64,000 nucleotides of DNA, taken from assembly GCA_948467395.1 (NCBI GenBank), contig CAOKDX010000017.1:1-64000 (forward strand), written 5' to 3'. The position numbers were made by a program, and so were the translations under genes. Under the pieces are notes generated by a model. It searched no databases and had not been told where the DNA came from. It saw only the letters and a list, made by a program, of their open reading frames with translations. Source of the DNA: an uncultured Clostridia bacterium (GTDB lineage: Bacteria; Bacillota; Clostridia; Lachnospirales; Lachnospiraceae). Shown here piece after piece: positions 51,455 to 64,000 of this stretch. Numbering within the stretch: the stretch's first letter is position 1; every line of letters begins with the position of its first letter.

Positions 51455-52174
51455 CTATCGGATTTCCTCCACCTTCTTTAAGGATATCCACTGCCATCGG
51501 CCCTGGCTGTCCTTCTTCAGGATTCTGCCCCAATTTCCAGAAACCTTCGAAATCGTGACAACCTTCCCTTTTTTTACAGAACTAGTCTTATTCTTTGGTT
51601 TCACTCCCTTACTGGAACGGATAGCGGCATCCTTTACAACCTTGGCCTTATACTGATAATTATTTACCACCTTACTCCGAAAATGCTTCCATTCCTTATT
51701 CTCCTTTCCAGTCATGGGGCCCGGACATTCTTTGCCATTGACATCCCAGTGGCGCACCACCGTCTTCAGCTTCGGACATTTACTTTTCAGCCAGAGATAC
51801 AATTCCCGGGAAGCCAGCATCTGCTCCCAGGATGGCCCCTTGAGACAGTCGCACAGCTCAATGCTTATACTGTTGGAATTGGTCACCTTCCTGTAGTACT
51901 TTCCTGCTCCCTTCTTCTGGGAATATAACCCGCCTACTGCGTTGGCGCTCTTATTAAGCGGTACTGACAGGGCCATATCGCCGTTACGGCTCACAAACAG
52001 ATGGGCTCCCGCCTTTCTTACATTTCCGGTGGCAAAAAAATCGGCGTTATTTTTTGCCGTATCGCCCTTGTTGGCGGTAAAATGAAACACCAGGGCAGTG
52101 ATAGTATCGAGTTCCCTTCCCCCGCTCCAGCTGATCTTCTTTGCCTTTCTTTTATACATTGCCGGTTCTTTCAT
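51455..52174 (-). CDS. N-acetylmuramoyl-L-alanine amidase (endolysin) with SH3-like end
   Basis: The protein has about 239 residues. An amidase_2-type domain (TALVFHFTANKG with zinc His, then AGAHLFVSRNG, SISIELCD and RHWDVNGKECPGP with the later zinc ligands) is followed by a basic linker and a C-terminal SH3-like domain (KGKVVTISKVSGNWGRILK, WQWISLKKV). It should cut peptidoglycan and release tail particles or open the cell wall. It lies last in the tail operon. The ATG at 52174 follows AAGGA; an in-frame ATG at 52252 has no site. No holin gene was found next to it. Confidence 0.82.
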   Translation of the reverse strand: MKEPAMYKRKAKKISWSGGRELDTITALVFHFTANKGDTAKNNADFFATGNVRKAGAHLFVSRNGDMALSVPLNKSANAVGGLYSQKKGAGKYYRKVTNSNSISIELCDCLKGPSWEQMLASRELYLWLKSKCPKLKTVVRHWDVNGKECPGPMTGKENKEWKHFRSKVVNNYQYKAKVVKDAAIRSSKGVKPKNKTSSVKKGKVVTISKVSGNWGRILKKDSQGRWQWISLKKVEEIR

Positions 52175-52275
52175 TTGATCAATCCTTCCCTTTTTCAATT
52201 GGTCTGTGATAAGGTAATTTTTTTCTTTCCATTTAATATATGTAGGTAACATATTACCATGTTCATCAATTTATG

Positions 52276-53616
52276 CTAAGAAACAAATAGCGGCAATATC
52301 CTTGCATATGCCCTGTATACACCGGACGCTCCGCCATCCATTTGAACAAGCAGCTCCAGACCTTCTCCCGGATATAAATAAATAATATTACTCTGTGAGG
52401 ATACTTCCCACGTAGTAAATCTGCCAATAATTTCTATTGCCCTATCCTTCATAGTAGTTGTACCCGGATTAATGATATTCACAAAATATCTTTTTACCAC
52501 ATCATAAGTTTGTGTTATTTCGGAGTATATAATATATCCTTTTATATAATAATATCCACCCACCTTTACTCTGTATATAGAATTTGAATAATCTAAATAA
52601 TCAGAATTCAAAGTGTTCATAGCCACAGATCCTATATTCATGTTGTTTCCATTAGATGAATATGTCTTTCCATTGGCATCGATCATGCTTACCAGATTTT
52701 TATTTATATTGCTGGAAAATATCGGTGGATCAAAGGCACTGGTTATTGCTTTTTGCGTCATAGTTCCATTTGTATTTGACCCTCTTGTGGTATACAATTT
52801 TGTCAGCCCCGCCACAGAAGCAGTGCCCGTACCATATGTCGTATTGGTATCCTGCCCGGGAATCCCCAACTTTGTTATATCTGCCTTAGTCACATCGGCC
52901 GTCCCGGTCACATGGCCGCTGGCGTCGGTGGTAATCTTATACAGCCCGTTTGCTTTCACTCCGGCGGCACTGGCCGGATGGGTATACTTATTTGCCCCGG
53001 CGGCAATTCCTGCCAGCTTCGTTCGTTCGGATGAGGTAAAGTGAATCGTACCGTCATTTATATGATTCTGCAATTCTGCCTGATCTGCTTTCTGGCCAAT
53101 TGCCTCATCCAGGGCATCCACAACCGACATATTCACTTTTTTTTCGTCAAATTCTTCCAGCGCTGTTCTGACTTCCTCTTCGAGAGCGTATAAATTGCTG
53201 GCCGTCCGCACGGTTATATTAACATCATCGCTAACCACTAACGTGAACCGAAATCTCTTCTCCTTGGATACCATTTCGGATTCCGGATCGATATACTCTG
53301 CATCCCCGGCACCTGCATTGTCATAGTAACACAAGGCATGATTCGCAATAATTCCAATTTCCCTGAAATAGAACCCTCTGGGAGCCTGATCGCTGTTCCA
53401 GTCACAGTCGATGGTAACCTCATTATCTTTTCTCGTCACCCTGCTCACCGGAATCTCCATAACCTTATTTGTGAGTTCTGTCTTACTTAAATACGAGCCC
53501 TCATAAATTCCATCCCCCAGCTGCACATGAGTAAAATCCAATGTCTTTTCATTACTGATAGCGGACGCTATCTCATTCCTTCCCTGATTTGTCAGAATCA
53601 ATCCTCCAAAACTCAT
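52276..53616 (-). CDS. Tail fibre / tail-collar protein
   Basis: The 446-residue protein begins SFGGLILTNQGRNEIASAIS and VQLGDG, the N-terminal pattern of phage tail-collar fibres that bind the baseplate. The middle has HINDGTIHFTSSERTKLAGI and YTHPASAAGVKANG, repeats common in fibre shafts. The last 160 residues are beta-rich with no known family and should be the receptor-binding tip. It starts 4 bp before the YmfQ stop (ATGA). The end segment decides the target in phage or tailocin particles. Confidence 0.85.
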   Translation of the reverse strand: MSFGGLILTNQGRNEIASAISNEKTLDFTHVQLGDGIYEGSYLSKTELTNKVMEIPVSRVTRKDNEVTIDCDWNSDQAPRGFYFREIGIIANHALCYYDNAGAGDAEYIDPESEMVSKEKRFRFTLVVSDDVNITVRTASNLYALEEEVRTALEEFDEKKVNMSVVDALDEAIGQKADQAELQNHINDGTIHFTSSERTKLAGIAAGANKYTHPASAAGVKANGLYKITTDASGHVTGTADVTKADITKLGIPGQDTNTTYGTGTASVAGLTKLYTTRGSNTNGTMTQKAITSAFDPPIFSSNINKNLVSMIDANGKTYSSNGNNMNIGSVAMNTLNSDYLDYSNSIYRVKVGGYYYIKGYIIYSEITQTYDVVKRYFVNIINPGTTTMKDRAIEIIGRFTTWEVSSQSNIIYLYPGEGLELLVQMDGGASGVYRAYARILPLFVS

Positions 53617-54155
53617 AAAACCACCTGCCTTATCGTCATTATTTCATCATCCTGCCATACAACGCCTGTCGCCGCCCTGCCCTTGCTGCTCTCTGCCGCC
53701 CTGACTTCATACCATATATTTTGCGGGAGGATCCTGTCAACAACCCGTTCAATCTCCGATACATCATCCTTTTCATAGATACTGAAGGAAATCCTGTAAT
53801 TCTCCAGATCAGAATCAATATCATAATTATTTACTCCGCACAATACATTTAACTGGCGAAGCATCGTCCGGTAAGTATACGGCATAACCGTATTCCATTC
53901 TGCCAGAACTCTTCTCTTCCTTACCTCCAGCTTGTCCTGTGGCACCGGCAGTATTCCCAGTAGCGCCTCATATTTTCTTATGCCGTATTCATCACAATCC
54001 TCAATAAAAGCATTATCATAAATTTTTTCAATGCCAGCCTGAAGCTTATCCATCCACTTTTCTTCCACCCTCATAATCTCCTGCAGCTCACCAAAAGACT
54101 GCATAAACGGCGGAAGGTATTCTATCAGCTTTTTTCTCTCGGGAAAATCAGCCAT
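53613..54155 (-). CDS. YmfQ/DUF2313 (XkdU-like) tail protein
   Basis: The 180-residue protein with LIEYLPPFMQSFGELQEIMRVEEKWMDKL, KYEALLGILPVPQD and RVLAEWN matches XkdU/YmfQ, a small baseplate-linked protein between gpJ and the fibre. It overlaps the J gene by 8 bp and the fibre by 4 bp. Confidence 0.82.
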   Translation of the reverse strand: MADFPERKKLIEYLPPFMQSFGELQEIMRVEEKWMDKLQAGIEKIYDNAFIEDCDEYGIRKYEALLGILPVPQDKLEVRKRRVLAEWNTVMPYTYRTMLRQLNVLCGVNNYDIDSDLENYRISFSIYEKDDVSEIERVVDRILPQNIWYEVRAAESSKGRAATGVVWQDDEIMTIRQVVL

Positions 54156-55371
54156 TTACCTCACCCCTTACCGGTATCTCATCACTCTCAAGTATTACAT
54201 TTTCCGCCTTTTCATTTAACAGGGTCTGTCCAATATCAAGGATTCCTTCTATTTCCATCAGGCGATGCTCCATCTGGCTCATGCGTATGACCAGCCTGTC
54301 CTCCTCTGCCCATTCCTGTCTCAGCTGGAGAAAATAGCTGTCTATTGCGGATTCTATTTCCTCTTTCCGGTTGGCAAAGGTATACCCGCTCTTATATTCG
54401 ATTCCCTGCAAGGTTATATTTATCGGTCTTTCCTTTGCACCGGCCACCCTCACCACATGTCCAATTGGAGCTGTTCCGTCCCCTTCCCCGGCGCTTTGTT
54501 CCGGATCCAATGTCTCCTGTACCAGACGGATCAGTGTCTGGGATGGACTTCTGTACTCCGTATTGATAATCTCAACCTGTACCGTTCCTCCTACAGTCAG
54601 CTTCTTTTCGGATGCGGCACCATATATTCTCCTCAGCCAGTTGTATACCGGCTCGCCAAGTGTTTCCCCAGACTGGTTTTCAAACCACTCCGTTACCCTC
54701 TCCTCCGGAATCAGCTGGGTCGGATGGTAACCTCCGTTCCAGCGCCGGTATACCTTGACGCCGCCTACTCCGTCTATTTCCCCCGCCCTGGCGATGTAAT
54801 CGGCACGGTTTCCGCCAAAGGCTTCATCACGAAAGGAGGAAAAATACCGCTCCCGGAAAGCTTCCACATCCTCGTCATCCTTACCGGGAATCAGAATCTC
54901 CGTAAGGACCGCTTCTTCCATTTCATTCAGGTCATTTTTTGTATCAATGGGAATAAGTTCCCCTGTCTGCTGGTTTGCCATACTCCCCGCCTCTTCGCAG
55001 GTCAGTTGATAGGATCCCTTTGCTCCCTCATCCATCGAGGTGACCATATAATTCAGATCACCCAGGTGAAATCTGTCACCAATAGAAATTGGCGTCTCAG
55101 GGGGCGTCACCACCATGCGGCACAATGCCTGGGTTTCCTGTCGGGGAAATATTCCCCGCTCCGCTGCCCGTTTAATCAGATAATAATACGATGCGGAATC
55201 GGCAAACACTTCATCCAGAACCATATCCAGATTGCCATAAAATTCACCCATCTGGACTGCTGCCGGAGCTGCCGCATCCCATATGGGCGATCCTTCCCTT
55301 TTGTCATATCTGTCATCTACATCATCCAGCATACTTTCCAGAATGGAACTGCTGTCAAATTCTTCAAACAT
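54148..55371 (-). CDS. Baseplate J/gp47 family protein (XkdT-like)
   Basis: The 407-residue protein has DKREGSPIWDAAAPAAVQM, PRQETQALCRMVVTPPE, FRERYFSSFRDEAFGGNRADY and VKVYRRWNGGYHPTQLIP, the order seen in baseplate J/XkdT proteins, which form the wedge of contractile tails. The start overlaps the DUF2634 stop (TGATG). Normal length for the family. Confidence 0.88.
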   Translation of the reverse strand: MFEEFDSSSILESMLDDVDDRYDKREGSPIWDAAAPAAVQMGEFYGNLDMVLDEVFADSASYYYLIKRAAERGIFPRQETQALCRMVVTPPETPISIGDRFHLGDLNYMVTSMDEGAKGSYQLTCEEAGSMANQQTGELIPIDTKNDLNEMEEAVLTEILIPGKDDEDVEAFRERYFSSFRDEAFGGNRADYIARAGEIDGVGGVKVYRRWNGGYHPTQLIPEERVTEWFENQSGETLGEPVYNWLRRIYGAASEKKLTVGGTVQVEIINTEYRSPSQTLIRLVQETLDPEQSAGEGDGTAPIGHVVRVAGAKERPINITLQGIEYKSGYTFANRKEEIESAIDSYFLQLRQEWAEEDRLVIRMSQMEHRLMEIEGILDIGQTLLNEKAENVILESDEIPVRGEVNG

Positions 55372-55820
55372 CAGATCTCAACCTCACTTTCCATATCTAT
55401 TTCCTCCTCTTCGGCAGTGATTACAGTAAATGCCACGGATAATGTTCGCCTTCCCACTCTCTGCACATTAAAATTTTCTACCGATTCAATCCGGTCATCT
55501 GCCAGAAGAGCCTCCGTAATTCTCCGTTTTATCTCACTCATACAATATAAAAGGGGCTCGCCATACAAATCCTGCATCTCAATCCCATAGTCCCAGGAAT
55601 AGATCTCATATTCATACCTCTCTGTATTCAGGATTTTCATAACTGCCTGACGGACTGCCTCTGTGTCGTCTACCTTTCCAACAAAAGAATTTTTATGCTC
55701 ATCCAGTTCCGCCTCACTTATATTCATGGCATAAGTCAATGACGGCATCGCGCGGATCACCATATCAGATGTTGTATCCTCATCCCATTCACTATCGTAA
55801 TTTTCATTATTTGGTATCAT
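55371..55820 (-). CDS. DUF2634 (XkdS-like) baseplate protein
   Basis: The 149-residue protein has MVIRAMPSLTYAMN, TEAVRQAVMKILNTERYEYEIYSWDYGIEM and a C-terminal ITEALLADDRIESV, the gp25-like/DUF2634 pattern of XkdS. Its ends overlap the neighbouring frames by 1-4 bp, showing tight coupling. Confidence 0.85.
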   Translation of the reverse strand: MIPNNENYDSEWDEDTTSDMVIRAMPSLTYAMNISEAELDEHKNSFVGKVDDTEAVRQAVMKILNTERYEYEIYSWDYGIEMQDLYGEPLLYCMSEIKRRITEALLADDRIESVENFNVQRVGRRTLSVAFTVITAEEEEIDMESEVEI

Positions 55821-56140
55821 ACTTCACTCACCACCCTGTCCAGGATCAGATATCTCTGTCCTTTCGGCTTCTGGATCATCCATACCTTATCTCCCTTTTT
55901 TAAAGAATTGTGTACAGTAACCTTCAGGCGGCTTCCCTGTATCGTCACCTCCGTATCAAAATCTGTTACATTCCTCGATAAATCCAGAAATTCCTCATAT
56001 AGAGTCAAAGATTTCGATATGGAAACCTCCAGCGGATTTTCCTTTTTTATAGTTCCGATAACATAGTCACATGGTTTTCCTGCCGCTACTGTCTGAACAG
56101 CAATTCTCCGAATTACCTGCAGCAGATCGGAATCAGCCAT
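55817..56140 (-). CDS. DUF2577 (XkdR-like) tail protein
   Basis: The protein has about 107 residues: MADSDLLQVIRRIAVQTV, then YVIGTIKKENPLEVSISKSL and SLKKGDKVWMIQ. This is the DUF2577/XkdR pattern of PBSX-like tails; its exact role is unknown. The ATG at 56140 follows AGGAGG and overlaps the hub gene end by 8 bp. Confidence 0.82.
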   Translation of the reverse strand: MADSDLLQVIRRIAVQTVAAGKPCDYVIGTIKKENPLEVSISKSLTLYEEFLDLSRNVTDFDTEVTIQGSRLKVTVHNSLKKGDKVWMIQKPKGQRYLILDRVVSEV

Positions 56141-57671
56141 TAAAATCACCTCCTGATACAACCAGTTCCATTTTATGATAACAGTTACTGAATTCGTGTG
56201 TTACCTTTTCCACTATCATATAATTTGCCACCTTGATATCTTTGAGATTAAGGATGACTGGCACCAGAGAGCCCGCACGGACCTTTGTGTTCCCAATCAC
56301 TCCTGTTATCGTAAGGCAGCGTCTCTTTTTGTTGTATAATTTTAAGAGTACCTTCGCTTTTTCTTTCCCTTTATCCGGGCTGTCAATTTTTTCAACATAC
56401 TGCAGGACACCCCACTTATTAATATTCTTCTTATGTCTTGTGACATATAAATCACCGGAATCCTTTTTCTTGTTTTTGTCCTTATTCTCATAAATCAGCT
56501 TAATCTGATTGTAAACCTCATGATCTATGCTTGTCTGATAGGAAAAATCTTCTCCTGTCCCAGCATCAACAAGACAGTTGTTGACCTTCATCTTAGAGAG
56601 ATCACTGAGAGTAAGTTTTCCAGCTTTATCATAAAGTACATAAATTTTTCCATTTGACATAAGCGTATTGTCCAGAGCATTCTGAATCATATCGAATAAC
56701 GTAGTATTATTTTCGATTACTGACATTTTGTGACCAGTATTTGCAAGAGTACCGCAGTTCATATGAAAACGGCCGGCAATGATTTTAATCATTTCATCTG
56801 CCCGCTTTTTCCGAAATATAATTGTATCTTTGTTTTTCAGATACCGCAGCTGATCGTAGACGGTAAATTCCATTCTTCCTGTTTTCGTCATTTTTCGAGT
56901 AAATACAAAACCAAAAAACATCTTTGTGCCATCCACAATTACGGAAACCTCATTTCCTTCTACGATTTTATAAGATTTCTCATATTTTGATGTAAAGGTC
57001 AGCACTCCTGGTGTTCCTTTTCTTTCCCATACTATCTTCATGCCGTCTTCTACCGGGACCTGAAAATATTTGGAACCATTCTTGACCATTACAAGAACAT
57101 TGCCCTCAGGCAGTCTGTATTTGCTTTCAATATCTGCTTTAATGGTTTTTCCCGAAGAAGCTTTTTTATTTTTTAAAATATTTTCCAGATAACTTAAATT
57201 ATTTTTTGATCCGGTACTCTTTTCACTTTTACCAGAGGAAAAATTGTAATTCTTATATTTTGGCACACCATAACCGGTTATGGTTGAATTTGACAGAGGA
57301 TACGTCTTTCTGGCCACTTTATCGGATGTATTCCCCTCTATCGTATGTAAGGTACTGCCCGAAACTTTTTCGACAATACCCACATGGCTTCTATTTGTCT
57401 TGAAATATACAATGTCACCCCTTTTGGGCGTATATTTCCCCTTATACTTAAAAAGCCCTTTTCTTTTAAACCAGTTCATTCCTGTTGTGGTTGATGCCGT
57501 CTTTGGCACAACGGATGTGGAAACTCCTGCCTGATCTGCGCACCATGATACAAACATATGACACCAGGCCGCTCCATTCATACCATACCACTTGCCGTAT
57601 TTGGTTGAGTTCTTTCCCGTCTCCCTGTATCCAAGTTCTCCAATTGCCACATCAACAATATCCTTCGCCAT
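56133..57671 (-). CDS. Fusion of CHAP-type endopeptidase and XkdQ-like tail hub
   Basis: The protein has about 512 residues. Residues 1-140 look like a CHAP cysteine peptidase/amidase (NGAAWCHMFVSWCADQAG with catalytic Cys, PKRGDIVYF, SHVGIVEKVSG with His, HTIEGN). Residues 170-512 match the XkdQ/YqbQ gpD-like baseplate hub (WERKGTPGVLTFT, FGFVFTRKM, YDQLRYLKNKDTIIF, FDMIQNALDNTL). In PBSX the hub lacks the CHAP domain. The fusion would put a wall-cutting enzyme at the tail tip. The ATG at 57671 follows GGGGTG. Confidence 0.82.
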   Translation of the reverse strand: MAKDIVDVAIGELGYRETGKNSTKYGKWYGMNGAAWCHMFVSWCADQAGVSTSVVPKTASTTTGMNWFKRKGLFKYKGKYTPKRGDIVYFKTNRSHVGIVEKVSGSTLHTIEGNTSDKVARKTYPLSNSTITGYGVPKYKNYNFSSGKSEKSTGSKNNLSYLENILKNKKASSGKTIKADIESKYRLPEGNVLVMVKNGSKYFQVPVEDGMKIVWERKGTPGVLTFTSKYEKSYKIVEGNEVSVIVDGTKMFFGFVFTRKMTKTGRMEFTVYDQLRYLKNKDTIIFRKKRADEMIKIIAGRFHMNCGTLANTGHKMSVIENNTTLFDMIQNALDNTLMSNGKIYVLYDKAGKLTLSDLSKMKVNNCLVDAGTGEDFSYQTSIDHEVYNQIKLIYENKDKNKKKDSGDLYVTRHKKNINKWGVLQYVEKIDSPDKGKEKAKVLLKLYNKKRRCLTITGVIGNTKVRAGSLVPVILNLKDIKVANYMIVEKVTHEFSNCYHKMELVVSGGDFNG

Positions 57672-57684
57672 CTTTTTCACCCCT

Positions 57685-58413
57685 TTATTTGGGAAGTTTA
57701 AATTTCGTACCTGGAAAAATCCAATGGCCATTTCCGGGTTTCCCATGTTTTTTTGCGGCTGACTGAATCTTTTTTTTGTTTAGTTTATAAATTTCTTTCC
57801 ACCTGTTCGCATTATTAAGCTGTTTCTTTGCGATTCCACGAAAGGTATCCCCTTTTCTTACCGTATAAGATTTGGCCGCGTTCTTTTTCTTCCCCCTGGC
57901 TCTCTTCATCTGTACAACAATCTGTCCCGACTTTGTCTTCTTACTTTTTGGAATCAGTTTTTTTGAACCAAAATATTTGTACTGCTTCATGCTGAGCTTC
58001 ACACATACATCGAGACCATACCCTTCCGCATCTTCCACGATTTCATAATCTTCTATGGTGACGTCCATGTCGGAATCCCATAAAAAAGAAGATCCATCCG
58101 GCAAACCGCGGAGCAGTTTCCAGTGAACCGGTTTTCTTCCTTTTTTCCATTTCTCCAACAGATCGAGATAATATTTTGCTTCATGAAATTCTGTCATTTT
58201 ACCGGTAACAGGATAATTAGCAAAGGGATATATCTGAACGGCCGGCAGAAGAAGCTCATCTATTTCAATCTCTGTCAGTCCAGGTGATTTGATAAGATTT
58301 ACCTCACCCTCATTTATGAGGGTGAGCGTCTCATTTCTGCCATTGATCTTAGTACTAATTTTCCCTGGTGTAACAGGAAACAGAATATTTTCGAAATACA
58401 TATAATATGCCAT
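57685..58413 (-). CDS. LysM-containing tail protein (XkdP-like)
   Basis: The 242-residue protein begins MAYYMYFENILFPVTPGKI, followed by EGEVNLIKSPGLTEIEI, the XkdP start. The C-terminus is a LysM motif (SYTVRKGDTFRGIAKKQL, about 190-240). It should help the tail tip bind peptidoglycan. The ATG overlaps the tape-measure stop (TAATG) after GGAAGGAG. Confidence 0.85.
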   Translation of the reverse strand: MAYYMYFENILFPVTPGKISTKINGRNETLTLINEGEVNLIKSPGLTEIEIDELLLPAVQIYPFANYPVTGKMTEFHEAKYYLDLLEKWKKGRKPVHWKLLRGLPDGSSFLWDSDMDVTIEDYEIVEDAEGYGLDVCVKLSMKQYKYFGSKKLIPKSKKTKSGQIVVQMKRARGKKKNAAKSYTVRKGDTFRGIAKKQLNNANRWKEIYKLNKKKIQSAAKKHGKPGNGHWIFPGTKFKLPK

Positions 58414-59972
58414 TATGCGTACACTCCTTCCGCAGTAGAACTCAGCTTTTCTTCCAGCTGCGTCTTAAGATGATTCGTGATGCCATCCAGATCCATATTA
58501 CTTGCTATATTATTATTGTTGTTCATGTCCACTTTAATAGTAGAAGATGTATATCTATTGATGGCTTTTGTCGTGGCATAATCCTTCAAATATTTCAGCT
58601 CTTCTGTTGTGACAGAAAGCTGATTCGCCACATCCGCAGTATTGGCAGCTGTTTTCTTCCTATCATCCCCTATATTGGTAATGGTGGCAGATATCTTACC
58701 ATACGGGTTTTTTACCAGGGAACCTTTCCCTTTGTCATCATTATTGTTCGTCGTATACTTCTTATAGAGTTCATCGTATTCCCTCTGGGCCTGGGAGGCA
58801 GCTGTTTCTTTATCTGTAATTCCATCGACAATTTCTTTATTTTTTCTATCTGTCTCCATGGTGGAATCATAAATGGCATCAAATTGATCCTGTGCCATTT
58901 TCCCAATATCATCAATACCTGTCCATGCTACTTCTTTAATTACCCCTATACTGACTCCTGGTATTGTGTTTAATGATTCAATCATTCCATTTATCATTGC
59001 AATTGCGCCATTTACCAGTGAGCGTACCGCATCCCCTATAAAATAAATAATGCCCAGTATAACACCACATACAGAACGTCCAATAATTTCAAAGCCCAGA
59101 CACAAATCGTTCCATGCAATTTGTATACTGCCTACAAATAAAGCCAATCCATAACCCGCCTTTGCTAACAATACTTGTGCCTTTTTAAACACCAGCTCCA
59201 TCGTCTCTCCGGCATCCCCTGTTTTCTCATTTAAATCTTTGATCCAGTCAATCAGGGAAAAAATAGCGAAAGCAACACCTGCGATTGCCACGATACTGAG
59301 AACACCAAATACGATTCCTGCAATTGTACCAAACACAGTCATAACTGTCTGACATATCGTCATGACTGTCGTGACAATACCGATTGCCCCCGCTACGATC
59401 ACATAAGCTGCTGCCAGTGAAAAAAGAACCTGGACAATTCCTAATATCTGTTCCCTGTGCTCAGCAAAGAAAGCAATTCCGGAACCAATGACAGAACCGA
59501 TTGTGGGCAAAATACTTCCCATGATCTCACCGAAGCTTTTTAATCCTTCCTGCACTGTTCCAAATCCTGCTTGTCCCAAAGCATCGTTGATATTTTGTAT
59601 CATGGAAGAAATCCCCTGAATCACGGATTCGTTCATACTGGATATGGCGCCTGACCACGTATTGCTTGCCATGCTGGCTGCGCCAGGTATCCCCACCGTC
59701 ATACTGCGCTCAAATCGAGCCATATTATCCATACTCTGCATTGCCGGTCCCATCTGGCTTTTCACTAAATCCACTACACCGCGGACAGGAGCAGAACTAT
59801 TAAAGGAAGAAAATATTTTGCTTCCAGAATTACTTATTCTCTCCGCCATATTTGCTAGATTTTTAAAGCTCTTTGTCTGGTCTTTCACCGCGTTATTGAC
59901 TAAGTTCAGTTTATTTTGGAAGGAACCGGATATTTTATTTATCATATCCACACTCGTTTGTATTGATGCCAC
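58413..59972 (-). CDS. Tape measure protein
   Basis: The 519-residue protein begins with an amphipathic helical part (INKISGSFQNKLNLVNNAV), then a strongly hydrophobic stretch of several membrane-like helices (about 150-260), and a polar coiled end. Position after the assembly chaperone identifies it. It is much shorter than PBSX XkdO, which exceeds 1300 residues. At the known ratio of about 0.15 nm per residue the tail would be near 78 nm. The start is GTG after AAAGGAGGTG. Confidence 0.82.
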   Translation of the reverse strand: MASIQTSVDMINKISGSFQNKLNLVNNAVKDQTKSFKNLANMAERISNSGSKIFSSFNSSAPVRGVVDLVKSQMGPAMQSMDNMARFERSMTVGIPGAASMASNTWSGAISSMNESVIQGISSMIQNINDALGQAGFGTVQEGLKSFGEIMGSILPTIGSVIGSGIAFFAEHREQILGIVQVLFSLAAAYVIVAGAIGIVTTVMTICQTVMTVFGTIAGIVFGVLSIVAIAGVAFAIFSLIDWIKDLNEKTGDAGETMELVFKKAQVLLAKAGYGLALFVGSIQIAWNDLCLGFEIIGRSVCGVILGIIYFIGDAVRSLVNGAIAMINGMIESLNTIPGVSIGVIKEVAWTGIDDIGKMAQDQFDAIYDSTMETDRKNKEIVDGITDKETAASQAQREYDELYKKYTTNNNDDKGKGSLVKNPYGKISATITNIGDDRKKTAANTADVANQLSVTTEELKYLKDYATTKAINRYTSSTIKVDMNNNNNIASNMDLDGITNHLKTQLEEKLSSTAEGVYA

Positions 59973-59976
59973 AGCC

Positions 59977-60587
59977 TCACCTCCTTTTTCGTTTTATTTT
60001 TCTCTCTTCCCGGCTCCGGCGTTCTGCTTCTATATCTATGCTCGCCATAACAAATGCTTTTTCGTTCTCCGGCAGATTACAGAATTTCGATGGCGGCCAC
60101 CGGAACTGATGCAGGCAATAATGTGCATATATGGATTCCGGATCGCCGCCGTCAATTAGTTTTTTGCCTGGTCTTTCCTATCCTGCAGCGTTTCATCAAA
60201 TCCATTGTAACTCTGGATAAACTGGGCAAATTCATCGTATTCTCCCGGGTCGTCGATCATCTCCCGGATAAGATCCTCTGGAGTTTTGACACCATAAGAA
60301 TCCTGCAGCTGCTGATTGTTCAGGTTTGGTTCCACCACACAGGCACAGATCATCTTTGCAAGGTATTTACCAGTATCAAGATCCTTTTGGTACTGACCCT
60401 TTTTTCCTCGTACCGGGACGTTTTTCATACATTCATCCCGGATTGTCTCATTATCTTTTGTGGATAGAGGACATATTACCCACTCCAGTACTTTTCCGTT
60501 TTCGTCACACAGTGATCTCGTTGCCGGATAAGTTGTATTTTTCTTCTGTTTCTTGTTTTCCTTTAAAAACAAACTTAAATTACTCAT
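59977..60587 (-). CDS. Tail assembly chaperone, frameshifted long form (gpGT-like)
   Basis: The 143-residue XkdN-like frame (60587-60156) ends in a perfect X XXY YYZ site, A AAA AAC at 60165-60159, right before its TAA. A -1 slip continues through 60 further codons to a TGA at 59979, giving a protein of about 203 residues. The extension contains YAHYCLHQFRWPPS and is basic at the end, as in known frameshift products of tail chaperone genes. The long and short forms are thought to bind the tape measure and tube and guide tail assembly. Not tested here. Confidence 0.8.
60156..60587 (-). CDS. Tail assembly chaperone, short form (XkdN-like)
   Basis: The 143-residue protein (ATRSLCDENGKVLEWVICPL, KYLAKMICACVVEPNL, SYGVKTPEDLIREMIDDPGEYDEF) matches the XkdN family that precedes the tape measure in PBSX-like tails. 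The AAAGGAG site before the ATG is strong. It shares its start with the frameshifted long form. Confidence 0.85.
   Translation of the reverse strand: MSNLSLFLKENKKQKKNTTYPATRSLCDENGKVLEWVICPLSTKDNETIRDECMKNVPVRGKKGQYQKDLDTGKYLAKMICACVVEPNLNNQQLQDSYGVKTPEDLIREMIDDPGEYDEFAQFIQSYNGFDETLQDRKDQAKN
60159..60165 (-). promoter_or_regulatory. -1 programmed frameshift slippery site
   Basis: A AAA AAC in frame with the chaperone gene, directly before the TAA stop. Confidence 0.85.
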
Positions 60588-60629
60588 GTTATCAATCTCC
60601 TTTATTCTATAGATTAAACCTGATACTAT

Positions 60630-61124
60630 TTAATCTGCCTTGAATCCCTTCAGAGCCTTAAATTCTTCGTTCATGGACGCCCCCTCAAAGGTAAATTCGA
60701 TTTCTTCATCCAGATATTCTCCATCCGCATCAAATTTCGCCAGGATACCACCGTCGATGTTACAGCCGGTCAGTGTAATATCCTGCCTTCCTGCCGCACT
60801 GGTAGGATCGTCATTGATGATCTGCATTTCGAAATATACATCCTGTCCCGTATTGGCATATTCCAACATCATTTTACGGAAAATAGAGGTATTATAATGG
60901 AGCGTTGCCGTACCTGTCCCGCTCCAGCCCGTAGCCTTATTTCCTTTTCCCGTTCTTCCCAGGATAGGGACCTGTGTTTTTGTTTTCTCAAACTTCGCCT
61001 CAACATTGATGGCCTGCATAAGATTGTATCTTTCGTTACCAATTGAAACATAACATTCCGCCAGTGATGCCGAGATGGTATCTTTGGCTAACATTACTGT
61101 GCTTTTCACGTCTGTATTCTCCAT
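60630..61124 (-). CDS. Phage tail tube protein (XkdM-like)
   Basis: The 164-residue protein has LAECYVSIGNERYNLMQAIN, EKTKTQVPILGRTGKGNKATG and an acidic beta end (GCNIDGGILAKFDADGEY), the XkdM tail-tube pattern. The tube forms the inner channel of the contractile tail. An AGGAG site precedes the ATG. It sits between sheath and chaperone, as in PBSX. Confidence 0.88.
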   Translation of the reverse strand: MENTDVKSTVMLAKDTISASLAECYVSIGNERYNLMQAINVEAKFEKTKTQVPILGRTGKGNKATGWSGTGTATLHYNTSIFRKMMLEYANTGQDVYFEMQIINDDPTSAAGRQDITLTGCNIDGGILAKFDADGEYLDEEIEFTFEGASMNEEFKALKGFKAD

Positions 61125-61140
61125 TCATATTCTCCTTTCA

Positions 61141-62478
61141 CTAAGCAATGGTAGTTGTCATATATAGCTGAGCCATTGCGTTTACTACTGTTACGGTATT
61201 ATCCACCACCACTGCCTTTTTCGTATCACCCGGCGAGACAACCACATCTGTCTCTTTAAAATTCTCGATTGCCTGAATGCGCTGCAGCTCCTGCCGGATT
61301 TTCACGAGATCGTACCAGAGAGCGGAACGGCCGGCTGCATTATTAGGAATCACTCCCAGATACTTTCTGGCAAAGAGAACAGAATCTTCATTTGCCAGCT
61401 GATCAATTACCCGGATAGTCTGATTTTCTTTAAATACTTCGCCCTGCGACTCTGTCGTAGTGACCATAGTATTGATATCATTCAGCACCCTGACTTCTCC
61501 ATTGACTGAATGAAACACAAATTCGCCGGAACTAACTGCCTTTTTAAGCTGATTTTGTGTGTAATCTGTGTCAATAATATACTCGCCATCATAACGACGA
61601 TTCTGACAGGAAGCGTTGACGGCACATCCACCCTGTACACCAGTGGTCCAGTATACTGCCGCTGCTTCATCCGGATAAACCATTCCGGAGCTTCCTTTCA
61701 CTGCTCCATCCATACACTTATTTTTTACACTGATAATTCCCATATAATCCGCTGTGGGATAATGATAGAGGACAAGCTGGAATTTTTTTCCGATCTCGTC
61801 CCTGACGCGTCTGTTAAAAGCTGCAAATAGTTCTTTCGTCGTTTCATCAGTAACAGCCGCTCCCATCGTATTAAAGGAATAGCTTTCGATTCGGTCAAGA
61901 TAATCCTGATACTCCAGTCCTGTGGCGTCACCATTTGTTCCCCCTGCCAGAGCCAGCGGCGCCGTTTCCTTCAGCTCCGCGTCTTCTTTAAATGTCACAA
62001 ACTCATTCGCCGTCAATTCTGCAGCAGAAGAGACTGTCTGAGCATCTACTTCTGTCGTATCCATATAGGTCACCACATCGTAAAGGGTGGTATTGTCCAC
62101 ATTCTGACTGATTTTGATCTTTAACGAGTTCCCTCTCGTTCCTGAATACAGTGCAGTGGCATATTCGTTGTCCGCCTTCACGCCTCCTCCATTGATACGG
62201 TAAGCATAAAGGGTCTGCGCATTCTTAAAGAGATCCCGCAGTCCTTTCATCTCCGGCGCTCCATAAGAACAGCCAAAGATCTGCAATGTCCTTTTCATAA
62301 AGTCTTCATTTGTGACTTCAAAAACTCTGTCCTCCGGTCCCCAGTCAAGAGAAAGAGGCATCGTTACCACTCCTCTGTCTGAAATCGAATCCGATGCGGA
62401 TGCAGCCGATACAAAATTTACATAAGTTCCAGGAAGCACTTTATTTTGTGCTGTCCATTTTCCTCCACCTAGTGCCAT
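61141..62478 (-). CDS. Contractile tail sheath protein (XkdK-like)
   Basis: The 445-residue protein begins ALGGGKWTAQNKVLPGTYVNF and ends TVVNAMAQLYMTTTIA, with RGNSLKIKISQNVD near 117 and VARKYLGVIPN-like segments (LFARKYLGVIPNN, KIRQELQRIQAIENF) near 370. These are XkdK/sheath blocks. Presence of a sheath shows that the tail is contractile. The start follows AAGGAAGGTG. Confidence 0.92.
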   Translation of the reverse strand: MALGGGKWTAQNKVLPGTYVNFVSAASASDSISDRGVVTMPLSLDWGPEDRVFEVTNEDFMKRTLQIFGCSYGAPEMKGLRDLFKNAQTLYAYRINGGGVKADNEYATALYSGTRGNSLKIKISQNVDNTTLYDVVTYMDTTEVDAQTVSSAAELTANEFVTFKEDAELKETAPLALAGGTNGDATGLEYQDYLDRIESYSFNTMGAAVTDETTKELFAAFNRRVRDEIGKKFQLVLYHYPTADYMGIISVKNKCMDGAVKGSSGMVYPDEAAAVYWTTGVQGGCAVNASCQNRRYDGEYIIDTDYTQNQLKKAVSSGEFVFHSVNGEVRVLNDINTMVTTTESQGEVFKENQTIRVIDQLANEDSVLFARKYLGVIPNNAAGRSALWYDLVKIRQELQRIQAIENFKETDVVVSPGDTKKAVVVDNTVTVVNAMAQLYMTTTIA

Positions 62479-62479
62479 G

Positions 62480-62665
62480 TTAAATCACCTTCCTTGTATA
62501 ATAATGTTCTAAATTTTTTTCTACTTCGGAAATGCTGTATTTCCTGCCATTCTCCAAAATAGCGCCCAACAGATCCTTCCGGTTTGAAAACCGGATTGAT
62601 GAGAGAATATCCTTTTTTGAAAAGCCATTTTTTTCGCTTTTCCCTGTTTCCGTCATATCTGACAT
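62480..62665 (-). CDS. Small tail-operon protein, unknown
   Basis: The protein has about 61 residues: MSDMTETGKSEKNG, then FSKKDILSSIRFSNRKDLLGAIL and YSISEVEKNLEHYY. It looks helical and soluble. The ATG at 62665 follows AGGTGAAGG; the gene ends 1 bp before the sheath start. The position between tail terminator and sheath suggests a tail-linked role, but I recognise no family. Confidence 0.6.
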   Translation of the reverse strand: MSDMTETGKSEKNGFSKKDILSSIRFSNRKDLLGAILENGRKYSISEVEKNLEHYYTRKVI

Positions 62666-62673
62666 ACCTTCAC

Positions 62674-63105
62674 CTAACCTTTCACTTTTGTATCCAGGCA
62701 CACTCCATCCATTTTTTCTTCTACGTCTATATTCCAGACAAAGAAGTTGTAATCTACAAAAAAATTTAATATGCCCTCCGCCACCTCAAAACTGACGTTA
62801 CTGCTAAGTACAGGGATACCCTGTATTTTGATTTTCTCCAGACACCATAGCATGTTCTCTGATACACTCCTGCATTCTGAACCAGTATCACTCTCTGATC
62901 CAGGATAGTACCGGATTGAAAATCTGTTTTCTCTTTTGTAACGTTTGCCGGGAAACTGACGTATTGTCTGTTTTTTGGGAGAAATAAAAAAACAGGGCTT
63001 CTCCATGTCCTGTCCCTGTTCACTATCATATATCCCGTAACTGTCTCCAAATGCTGATTTTAGAGCATTTGTAATCCCGTCCGTTATATCCTTGGTCGTT
63101 TGAAT
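62674..63105 (-). CDS. Tail terminator-like protein (DUF6838), probable ATT start
   Basis: The protein has about 143 residues. ITDGITNALKSAFGD, YDSEQGQDMEKPCFFISP, RFSIRYYPGSES and SVSENMLWCLEKIKIQGIPV match the tail terminator type seen in clostridial tail operons. No ATG, GTG or TTG lies in frame close to the strong AAAGGAGG site. An ATT at 63105, 4 bp after the site, is the best placed codon. An in-frame TTG at 63141 lies within a hairpin and lacks a site. Rare ATT starts are known. Confidence 0.7.
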   Translation of the reverse strand: MQTTKDITDGITNALKSAFGDSYGIYDSEQGQDMEKPCFFISPKKQTIRQFPGKRYKRENRFSIRYYPGSESDTGSECRSVSENMLWCLEKIKIQGIPVLSSNVSFEVAEGILNFFVDYNFFVWNIDVEEKMDGVCLDTKVKG

Positions 63106-63126
63106 ACATCCTCCTTTCTCCTGTCT

Positions 63127-63154
63127 CAACAGCGGGATCAAATCGACGCTGTTG
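63127..63154 (-). repeat. CAACGG-family hairpin before the tail operon
   Basis: CAACAGCG / CGCTGTTG stem (8 bp). The loop and right arm (TCAAATCGACGC) are shared with the hairpin at 47354. Confidence 0.6.
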
Positions 63155-63168
63155 GACTTCTGACTATA

Positions 63169-63199
63169 AAGGGCATCCCGCTACAAAGCAGATGCCCTT
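63169..63199 (-). terminator. Hairpin upstream of the tail operon
   Basis: AAGGGCATC / GATGCCCTT stem (9 bp, 13-nt loop). It lies between the regulator gene and the tail terminator gene and may be an attenuator. Confidence 0.5.
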
Positions 63200-63262
63200 C
63201 GTGATTTTGTTCCATGATACAATAATAACACTTTTTTGAGCTCCTGCGTCCCCCTCTTGTAT

Positions 63263-63664
63263 TTATTTCAATTTTTTATCCAGAAGCCAGTAAAACTTTC
63301 TTCTCTTCTCATAATACATGTTTTTTCCACAGGGAATCTCCATACATTGACTAAGATAGGTATATGTAATGCCATCATTAGTCACTGCCTTTATAATAAA
63401 TTTTTTCAAGATTGGATCTGCTTCTTCTGCCGTAGCTTCTACCAAATTAATCTTCTCCTGCAGTCCAACCCTTTTTTCTGCAAGCTCCCCAGTCTGGTCT
63501 TTCAACATTCCAGAGCCTGGCATACCAGACAGAAGGACACTTTTTACAGAATGATTACTGAATCTCAACATGTCCTTCCACTCACTATACTGCTGGCAAA
63601 AATAATATAACTCCTTATACCTGTTCTTACTCAATTTATACTCTCTACAATTTTTACTATTCAT
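63263..63664 (-). CDS. Putative late regulator (RinA/ArpU-like) of the tail operon
   Basis: The 133-residue protein has KLSKNRYKELYYFCQQYSEW, LVEATAEEADPILKKFIIKAV and YTYLSQCMEIPCGKNMYYEKRRKFYWLL. This order is like small sigma-like late activators of Gram-positive phages, but the match is weak. It is the first gene on the minus strand from the control region, behind a consensus promoter, with an AAGGAGG site. Two hairpins separate it from the tail genes, so it may act to let transcription continue or start there. Confidence 0.6.
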   Translation of the reverse strand: MNSKNCREYKLSKNRYKELYYFCQQYSEWKDMLRFSNHSVKSVLLSGMPGSGMLKDQTGELAEKRVGLQEKINLVEATAEEADPILKKFIIKAVTNDGITYTYLSQCMEIPCGKNMYYEKRRKFYWLLDKKLK

Positions 63665-63694
63665 AGAATATATACCTCCTTAATTCTCATTTCC

Positions 63695-63762
63695 TTAGAA
63701 TATTTATATAATACTCTTATATTTTTAGAATGTCAATAGTTTTTTTCTGAGAATATTAGAAT
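63695..63762. repeat. Three TTAGAAT repeats, 30-31 bp apart
   Basis: Copies at 63695-63701, 63725-63731 and 63756-63762, roughly three helical turns apart, span the divergent promoters. An imperfect ATAGAAT lies at 63663. They are likely operators for the Xre repressor. Confidence 0.6.
63708..63736 (-). promoter_or_regulatory. Promoter of the tail-operon regulator gene
   Basis: TTGACA and TATTAT are 17 bp apart on the minus strand. One TTAGAAT repeat overlaps the -35. Confidence 0.8.
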
Positions 63763-63767
63763 TATTA

Positions 63768-63796
63768 TTGACGAACATTCGTTTTAATGATATATT
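63768..63796 (+). promoter_or_regulatory. Promoter of the Xre repressor gene
   Basis: TTGACG and TATATT are 17 bp apart, about 25 bp before the ATG. Confidence 0.75.
63772..63785. promoter_or_regulatory. LexA-type SOS box
   Basis: CGAACATTCGTTTT matches the Gram-positive SOS consensus CGAACRNRYGTTYC at 11 of the 13 specified positions (the third ambiguous base and the last base differ). It lies within the repressor promoter. Confidence 0.55.
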
Positions 63797-63821
63797 ATTT
63801 ATCAAGAGAGGTGATCTGCTT

Positions 63822-64000
63822 ATGAAAATCGGTAATATTTTAAGAGAATCCAGGTTACATACGAAAAAATCAGTAAAGGAAGTTTCTGATTTTCTTATAA
63901 AACGGGGATACAAAGCCTCCGAGAAGACTATTTACAGCTGGGAATCCGGAAACAGCAAGCCGGACATTGACAGCTTTATGAGATTATGTGAGCTTTACGG
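63822..64000 (+). CDS. Xre-family repressor, cut by the window edge
   Basis: The visible 60 residues start MKIGNILRESRLHTKKSVKEV and include an HTH with SEKTIYSWESGNSKPDIDSFMRL, typical of Xre/cI-like repressors. It is divergent from the tail operon, with AGAGGTG before the ATG. As the likely master repressor, it could be relieved by DNA damage if a protease or LexA controls it (inference). The C-terminal part is not visible. Confidence 0.82.
   Translation, partial: MKIGNILRESRLHTKKSVKEVSDFLIKRGYKASEKTIYSWESGNSKPDIDSFMRLCELY

Follow-up and report, generated by a model that had tools for sequence, protein, structure and literature searches.

A headless contractile-tail operon of an uncultured Clostridia bacterium, very probably an R-type tailocin derived from a phiC2-like prophage

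R-type pyocins are under PrtR/PrtN regulation, and injection systems of the Afp/PVC type are marked by an AAA+ ATPase. In phiC2-like loci, terminase and portal genes lie 5' of the contractile tail (phiC2 also has annotated scaffold and capsid genes). The diffocin of the Gram-positive C. difficile (CD1362-CD1372 and on) is a bacteriocin built as a contractile tail. In engineered diffocin, parts corresponding to those found here are reported to form a killing particle, with an 817-aa tape spanning ~1388 A (PMC11329794). PBSX of Bacillus subtilis has a DNA-packaging head; it is reported to act as a tailocin and to package 13.4-kb DNA fragments (PMC12946183).

The window analyzed here is a stretch of 64,000 nucleotides of contig 17 from an uncultured Clostridia bacterium, probably of gut origin, whose genome is 97.7% complete. 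The contig ends at 67778, 3.8 kb to the right of the window. A contractile-tail operon occupies positions 51455-63664 of the minus strand, activator included. Its families were identified by Pfam or PHROGs, except for the tape measure, and are given below in their order from the promoter.

63263..63664, minus strand: late-gene activator candidate (phrog_11237, 1.2e-29), first gene of the operon
62674..63141, minus strand: tail terminator / collar (PF20765, 1.5e-29), start uncertain
62480..62701, minus strand: small protein 5' of the sheath (phrog_966, 4.6e-18), common to many relatives
61141..62478, minus strand: contractile sheath, 445 aa (PF04984, PF17482, PF22671, PF17481; phrog_279, 6e-123)
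60630..61124, minus strand: tail tube, XkdM type (PF09393, 7.6e-52; PBSX XkdM in PDB, 3.5e-25)
60156..60587, minus strand: tail assembly chaperone, XkdN type (PF08890, 3.5e-47)
58413..59972, minus strand: tape measure, 519 aa, named because it follows the chaperone and is homologous to the tape frames of relatives; no Pfam match
57685..58413, minus strand: tube-end / tube initiator with LysM (PF01476, 2.7e-5; phrog_380, 3.1e-52)
56133..57680, minus strand: hub (YQBQ) with N-terminal CHAP peptidase (PF24032, 1.4e-92; PF05257, 1.7e-13)
55817..56161, minus strand: DUF2577 (PF10844, 8.5e-22), candidate central spike
55371..55820, minus strand: sheath initiator, DUF2634 (PF10934, 1.5e-30)
54148..55371, minus strand: baseplate J (PF04865, 4.2e-47)
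53613..54155, minus strand: baseplate wedge, Mu Gp48 / YmfQ type (PF10076, 3.7e-22)
52276..53616, minus strand: tail fibre with collar-fibre N-terminus (PF12571, 1.9e-7)
51455..52252, minus strand: N-acetylmuramoyl-L-alanine amidase, Amidase_2 (PF01510, 3e-15), last gene of the operon

In the ORF listing of the window the 15 frames are all open. Together with the family matches they bear out a preliminary description of this DNA, which had seen a full contractile tail set in one minus-strand unit. The sheath contains four sheath domains (best 5.9e-23), and the LysM protein matches the "tail tube initiator" of PDB 9g8s/9gb2 (4.8e-7). The hub ORF opens at 57746 with a likely start at ~57680 (the 515-aa homologue of G005, a sister species and the closest relative, begins at residue 23); within this ORF, CHAP covers residues 57-139 and the hub 240-529. 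By its position DUF2577 is the candidate counterpart of the diffocin spike CD1369. The HxH motif, which in diffocin forms the His-doublet spike tip, is absent from DUF2577 of the window (read by eye) and from the G005 ORF, and is variable among relatives. The fibre, a candidate receptor-binding protein on sequence grounds, is separated by 23 bp from the amidase, which is 95% identical in G005 and has an uncertain start, the G005 alignment beginning at residue 19.

The absence of head genes, also claimed by that description, holds beyond the window. No portal, capsid or terminase gene was found within the operon. No integrase (PF00589) was matched on contig 17, and 11 PF00589 matches lie on other contigs of the genome. 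To the right of 64000, where the description had proposed to look for head genes as a test of its reading, none was found as far as position 67778, where the contig stops; this flank carries tRNA genes and decayed sensor/transporter fragments in addition to the S24 (LexA-like) repressor. The left end meets ordinary genes, as had been said, with a DUF362 ferredoxin-type gene adjoining the operon. A whole-genome search limited to two families, the SPP1-type portal PF05133 and Terminase_3 PF04466, found neither; both were found in the positive control, G026, another species of the genus. The locus is a complete contractile tail with no head or packaging gene found beside it and no integrase on its contig. 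We consider it very probable that the operon encodes an R-type tailocin, derived from a phiC2-like contractile prophage by head loss, and that the host makes the tail as a bacteriocin.

The same compact operon, which the preliminary description had suggested searching for, is present in G005 at the same site, beside the same DUF362 gene; a matching full prophage, which would have spoken against the description, was not found in this closest relative by the searches given below. A viral-contig record, L024, is 98.8% identical to the readable part of the G005 operon and carries terminator, activator and repressor directly 5' of the sheath, the same regulator-tail junction as in the window. The headless state of G005 is read from two genome-wide searches, in which neither a PF05133 portal nor a PF04466 terminase was found, and from L024. 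Against G005, dN/dS ranges from 0.004 to 0.235 for 12 operon genes, the tube being lowest (0.004). Against the partial record L024 it is 0.056 for the activator, 0.217 for the terminator (partial) and 0.132 for the repressor N-terminus. Purifying selection acts on the 15 genes tested, a 73-aa gene being left out of this set. The tape differs in length between the two species, with 519 aa in the window and 696 aa in G005.

These data bear on the reading of the operon as a decaying prophage remnant, in which leftover tail genes are retained by chance and no longer made or released. Such a remnant could have an operon devoid of a holin, as here; the adjacent decayed sensor/transporter fragments would reflect ongoing deletion in the region, and G006 has repressor-like fragments in its right flank with no tail before the contig end. 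A recently defective prophage would also show purifying selection, though the headless state is common to two species, which keep the tail set yet are without matching head genes. With all 15 frames open and dN/dS far below 1 in all 15 genes tested, a remnant seems unlikely. The nearest tail outside the lineage of the window and G005 lies on contig 49 of G026, in a head-bearing prophage-like locus whose tail is related (65% for the sheath); judged from sequence, it is the expected parent type and not a copy of the window operon. The DUF362 gene is present in 8 of the 39 genus genomes. In 7 fetched DUF362 loci lacking the tail, nothing past the DUF362 gene aligned to the window at the threshold used. 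No clean empty site was obtained.

Of the 137 related sheath places of the order, 64 were examined. Nine loci were headless and 47 headed; eight had been set aside before the count, namely five without a head match near contig ends, and L108, L111 and L112 with a scaffold or capsid match only. Since a terminase, portal or morphogenesis gene lies near the sheath in 46 of the 64 loci (within the fetched stretch), a headed tail of this kind normally has its head genes next to it. To the published impression that capsid genes are retained in Gram-positive tailocin loci, the window locus is a counter-example. The nine other headless loci, spread over nine genomes and apparently six host sites, lead in the same direction. 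In one genus all four of the genomes seen have the headless operon at the same site, beside the gene for DNA polymerase III delta. The sheath tree requires 6 changes of head state, and a single headless clade is rejected. Head gain in place of head loss may be compatible with parsimony alone. We think it probable that heads were lost repeatedly (on the sheath tree at least five times, six being more likely) and that the host has retained the resulting tails as weapons, placed among housekeeping genes. If so, such Clostridia would commonly possess headless R-type tailocins, a class of weapon domesticated again and again and as yet largely undescribed, in contrast to that published impression. 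Pairs of headed and headless relatives offer material for studying the steps from phage to weapon.

Contig 7 of the genome carries another contractile prophage, which runs into the contig end. The operon could accordingly be pictured as a tail donor, with heads supplied in trans by another prophage, a satellite or a gene transfer agent. Yet the contig 7 prophage has its own distant sheath (24-25% identity), tube, hub and J, the genome is without a phiC2-type portal or terminase (the search being limited to that type), and tails of this kind usually have a head-type gene near the sheath; we judge this arrangement very improbable. That the operon is an effector-delivering extracellular contractile injection system (Afp/PVC/MAC type) and not a membrane-puncturing bacteriocin is less credible still: a contractile tail that lacks a head and sits in a host locus would suit it, but neither an AAA+ ATPase nor an effector-like family occurs among the operon ORFs scanned, and the gene order matches phiC2/diffocin tails.

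Of the lysis genes, the operon has the amidase, and a search for a holin gene in it found none. The G006 prophage has an SPP1-type holin at the corresponding place (PF04688, 3.5e-22) and the headless locus L085 has one as well (PF04531); as regards release of the tails, this counts against the tailocin reading. The contig 7 prophage carries a holin (PF05105, 9.2e-24). A DUF4190-like membrane protein (L003:3251-4036) was considered as the missing holin and rejected, its only holin-family match being weak (PF07332, 0.0055); in G005 a resembling ORF lies on the strand opposite to the amidase.

The control region at the head of the operon contains the following elements.

63822..64000 in the window, plus strand: divergent S24 (LexA-like) repressor, ATG at 63822, end at ~64607, past the window
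63768..63796, plus strand: repressor promoter candidate TTGACG-17-TATATT, from the promoter scan
63708..63736, minus strand: operon promoter candidate TTGACA-17-TATTAT, 11/12 consensus matches, aligned in L024
63695..63762, no strand: three direct TTAGAAT repeats (63695, 63725, 63756); 0 of 20000 composition shuffles reach three, a post hoc test of a motif picked after being seen

The regulator and divergent repressor reported earlier are thus recovered as the phrog_11237 gene and the S24 repressor. The repressor (L003:822-1607) matches PF00717 (3.4e-17) and HTH_19 (2.4e-4), and, as read by eye, appears to have an Ala-Gly and Ser/Lys arrangement. Five of 20 members of the activator family match phrog_248 "transcriptional activator". 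A gene of this family lies 0.5-2.9 kb 5' of terminase genes in 6 of 20 fetched loci (L094, L096, L098, L100, L101, L102), as well as 5' of terminase genes in the headed loci L122, L138, L139, L176 and L177, and it adjoins the terminator in the window and in headless L085. Because no head gene was found with the queries used in 13 of the 20 loci, the argument from position draws on the remaining ones. The name of candidate activator is suggested by phrog_248 and by position; a Pfam search of the 20 members gave nothing convincing. A sigma-70-r4 type was rejected, the profile comparison of the activator family (A1, 20 rows) with A2 (4 rows: the proteins before the terminase genes of G026, G001, G017 and G018, one of which matches Sigma70_r4) being weak (16.6% probability).

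The operon promoter candidate is the best of 4 promoter-like sites in the control region, a number not in excess of shuffles (2.7, sd 1.5). A LexA-box-like CGAACATTCGTTT at 63772-63784 falls inside the spacer of the repressor promoter candidate, that is, in the repressor's own promoter and outside the tail promoter; it is weaker and partly kept in L024. As LexA-like boxes number 22 genome-wide and the reversed control gives 39, a single match carries little weight, and this chance rate and the incomplete conservation in L024 rule out the box as proof of SOS control. In the host genome a box of this form also lies ~17 bp ahead of the start of recA (PF00154). The S24 repressor and the LexA-like box are only suggestive of SOS induction of the operon. 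The TTAGAAT repeats, 2 of 3 exact in the stretch of L024 scanned, are possible operators.

We infer how the tailocin might have arisen and might work. Loss of the head block (terminase, portal, capsid, connectors) would have brought the tail terminator next to the late activator. The S24 repressor would hold down the activator/tail promoter until DNA damage led RecA to trigger its self-cleavage, whereupon the activator would drive the long tail operon. Tails of ~88 nm, a length obtained by simple scaling of the 519-aa tape from that of diffocin, would assemble and be freed by the amidase with a holin from elsewhere, perhaps from the contig 7 prophage. The fibre would bind the tails to related bacteria, and contraction would drive the hub, which carries its own wall hydrolase (CHAP), across the envelope, killing by depolarisation.

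Compared with known systems, the layout of a LexA-like S24 repressor adjoining the activator of the tail operon can be likened to that of PrtR/PrtN in the R-type pyocins, the activator here belonging to a late-gene activator-like family (phrog_11237). phiC2 and phiC2-like prophages have the same tail-module order, and the window sheath is 49% identical to that of phiC2. Their head/packaging block 5' of the tail was not found in the window, and the extra hub domain of phiC2 is C-terminal whereas CHAP is N-terminal here. XkdM/XkdN/XkdQ-type tail proteins are common to PBSX and the operon; unlike PBSX, with its head packaging host DNA, the operon has no head genes found beside the tail. The preliminary assignment to bacteriocins of the PBSX/diffocin kind fits the mechanism; in sequence the tail belongs to the phiC2/PBSX type and is distant from diffocin. 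The window sheath matches diffocin CD1363 with E=3.7e-4 over 220 residues (445 versus 354 aa), and the tube is nearer to PBSX XkdM (3.5e-25) than to diffocin CD1364 (1.2e-5). Baseplate J is of the diffocin CD1371 type (PDB 8v3w TRI-2 CD1371, E=6e-15), and CD1372 was matched to the Gp48/YmfQ wedge by gene order only. The close sheath and tube and the C-terminal hydrolase of the diffocin lineage are not found in the window operon: its hydrolase domain is N-terminal in the hub, that of CD1368 being C-terminal, and its tape has 519 aa versus 817 aa. Both systems share the order collar, sheath, tube, tape, LysM/tube end, hub/hydrolase, spike, sheath initiator and triplex proteins, and in both the hub is fused to a wall hydrolase. 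By this analogy the tailocin should work like diffocin, though it is of another lineage; it would add a second lineage to the tailocins that target Gram-positive cells, one in which the hub-hydrolase is built differently and the tape is short.

The tail genes form a single unit of 15 open frames on the minus strand, from 63664 down to 51455, in a genome (G000; 2.99 Mb, 42 contigs, 97.7% complete) of which the window is contig 17, 1-64000. The full contractile tail set proposed in the preliminary description was confirmed by identification of its parts with Pfam, PHROGs and solved structures.

Components of the operon, in operon order
first gene, minus strand: candidate activator, 133 aa, member of phrog_11237
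minus strand: terminator, 73-aa protein, sheath, tube, XkdN-type chaperone (Pfam, PHROGs, solved structures)
minus strand: tape measure (assigned by position and homology)
minus strand: LysM tube-end protein, CHAP-YQBQ hub, DUF2577 protein as candidate spike, sheath initiator (Pfam, PHROGs, solved structures)
minus strand: baseplate J, Gp48-type wedge, fibre, amidase (Pfam, PHROGs, solved structures)

On sequence grounds there is good support for regarding the locus as a new R-type tailocin locus, ordinary in kind. Contig 17 ends at 67778, so the right flank can be read from 64000 to that point, and no head genes were found there, where the preliminary description had proposed to look for them. 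Its observation of no portal, terminase or integrase in the operon also held: neither the SPP1-type portal profile (PF05133) nor the Terminase_3 profile (PF04466) matched anywhere in the G000 genome, and of 11 matches there to the integrase profile PF00589 none lies on contig 17. As a positive control, both head profiles find their genes at the tail locus of G026, a genome of the same genus.

Features of the right flank
beyond 64000, opposite direction to the operon: rest of the S24-domain repressor
right of 64000: response regulator and histidine kinase fragments
right of 64000: transporter fragments (by similarity to the longer-framed G025 locus)
right of 64000: DUF4190-like membrane protein
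right of 64000: tRNA cluster Lys, Phe, Met, Tyr, Thr

In contig 17 64615-65969 (L003:1615-2969), decayed pieces of a sensor kinase, a response regulator and a transporter make up a mosaic; its blocks match longer frames of G025 (L166) at 92-97% with pieces missing. The corresponding flank in genome G006 (contig 95, L165) holds three separate repressor-like fragments beside a DUF4190-like gene, with no tail operon up to the contig end and a phage-type integrase (PF00589) on the other side.

The compact operon, which was to be sought in relatives, is present in the sister species G005, of the same genus, where it adjoins the same DUF362 gene (sheath identity 95%; the comparison spans the 73-aa gene and what lies downstream of it). 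Repressor, activator, terminator and sheath have the window's compact order in L024, a record that matches the open part of G005 at 98.8% identity and whose promoter candidates align. This headless-operon piece is listed as a virus in a public viral-contig collection (IMG/VR 3300005469_000141). Between window and G005, dN/dS (Nei-Gojobori) ranged from 0.004 (tube) to 0.235 (tape) over 12 operon genes and was 0.034 for the flanking DUF362 gene. The tape measure has 519 aa in the window versus 696 aa in G005, the difference lying in stretches of 33 and about 144 residues. Scaled on the tape of diffocin, the R-type tailocin of Clostridioides difficile (817 aa, about 1388 A; PMC11329794), the predicted tail lengths are about 88 nm and 118 nm.

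The window sheath was searched against 392 genomes of the order (E<=1e-60), giving 138 places in 106 genomes, window included, by hand count from the table. At 64 of the 137 other places, taken in batches of 47 and 17, head state was called from BLAST comparison with relatives' head genes: 47 were headed, 9 headless and 8 undetermined. A terminase, portal or morphogenesis match was present in 46 of the 47 headed places, and scaffold and capsid only in L114. All 17 places of the second batch, of lower sheath identity, were headed; headless loci are thus concentrated among the better sheath matches. In some headed loci (L041, L125, L128, L141, L167, L168, L171, L173, L174) the terminase or portal match lies not ahead of the tail but downstream of the baseplate genes, and a locus can be called headless only after both sides are checked. 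Both sides were read in one stretch for L085; for the other eight headless loci, 11.6-12.5 kb upstream and about 22 kb downstream were read.

Neighbours of headless loci (Pfam)
G159: ribosomal L1, L7/L12, exonuclease
G269: SepF
G168: WhiA
G127: sigma factor
G151: penicillinase-type repressor
G230: DNA polymerase III delta, S20, LepA

Of the 11 genomes searched that carry either the window's operon or a headless locus, counting G000 and G005, eight lack any match to PF05133 and PF04466; the remaining three have such matches away from the headless locus. In all four genomes seen of one genus, g31 (L133, L134, L136, L137, with L150-L153), the headless operon with XRE-like and IrrE-type genes occupies one site beside DNA polymerase III delta. 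This delta frame (91-98%) and the divergent regulator pair are common to the four, as are, by reading, the downstream S20 and LepA frames.

The sheath tree has 55 rows, of which 11 are headless, 36 headed and 8 undetermined, and leaves out the 17 second-batch loci. In it the window groups with L024 and next with headed G026 (support 100/99). The headless label requires 6 changes on it; counting only what well-supported branches force, the number is 6 when the undetermined rows are kept and 5 when they are dropped. The hypothesis of a single headless clade, whose members were fixed before the tree was inspected, is rejected (AU test, p = 7e-8). Repeated origin of tailocins in general has already been proposed (PMC12090994); among the matches listed in the open-licence literature, we found no publication on headless tailocins in Lachnospiraceae-type bacteria.

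The nearest tail outside the window/G005 pair is that of G026 (sheath 65%), whose locus carries by Pfam both terminase subunits, small and large, and an SPP1-type portal, with further head-like frames recognised by length and order. Among 20 activator-family loci fetched, terminase lies 0.5-2.9 kb downstream of the activator in six (L094, L096, L098, L100, L101, L102), one (L085) has a contractile operon without a head, and queries found no head genes in 13. The activator also precedes terminase in headed L122, L138, L139, L176 and L177, and a relative in G794 is followed, by reading, by a phage late region with no sheath match. In the window the terminator directly follows the activator, as expected if a head block between these two was lost; we infer head loss, rather than head gain, as the direction of change.

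The divergent region contains promoter candidates for the operon (TTGACA-17-TATTAT) and the repressor (TTGACG-17-TATATT), the latter with a LexA-like box, CGAACATTCGTTT, in its spacer, and three TTAGAAT repeats spaced about 30 bp. Promoter-like sites there number 4 against 2.7 (sd 1.5) in shuffles, which is no excess, so support for the candidates comes from strength, position and conservation rather than number. L024 keeps the promoter hexamers and two exact TTAGAAT repeats, with a weaker LexA-like box. Likely, a RecA-cleavable S24 repressor would control the activator, which would drive the tail genes; this scheme resembles the regulatory logic of pyocin PrtR/PrtN. A divergent S24 repressor is present at headless L085 as well (PF00717 2.9e-25), and the g31 loci have in its place an XRE-like gene together with one of IrrE type (PF06114). 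Elsewhere in G000 (contig 2 123090-123132, L154), two LexA-like boxes 30 bp apart precede a small membrane-protein-like ORF.

No holin was found between fibre and amidase in the window operon, whereas a G006 prophage (L045/L158, contig 6) has an SPP1-type holin and a family-less 97-aa frame there. Its J is distant (22%), its fibre related (67% over the N-terminal 295 residues) and its amidase of the same family, Amidase_2; the related fibre and amidase suggest that the fibre-lysis end may have been exchanged between tailocin and prophage. Besides the window operon, G000 itself harbours a contractile prophage that is distantly related (contig 7 133190-153189, L046; sheath 24-25%) and runs into the contig end; it has genes for a holin (PF05105) and an endolysin-like protein (PF25309), and by reading, sporulation-stage-III-like genes lie beside it.

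The C. difficile phage phiC2 has the same tail order as the window, with a sheath 49% identical. Diffocin and phiC2 carry an extra domain after the hub, whereas the window has a CHAP hydrolase before it. This N-terminal order also occurs in headed relatives (L030, L033, L038, L117) and is therefore not a tailocin mark; hubs of the other 9 headless loci, at 315-351 aa, have about hub length only. The wider interest lies in how headless tails recur across the order and in how far the window tail is from diffocin.
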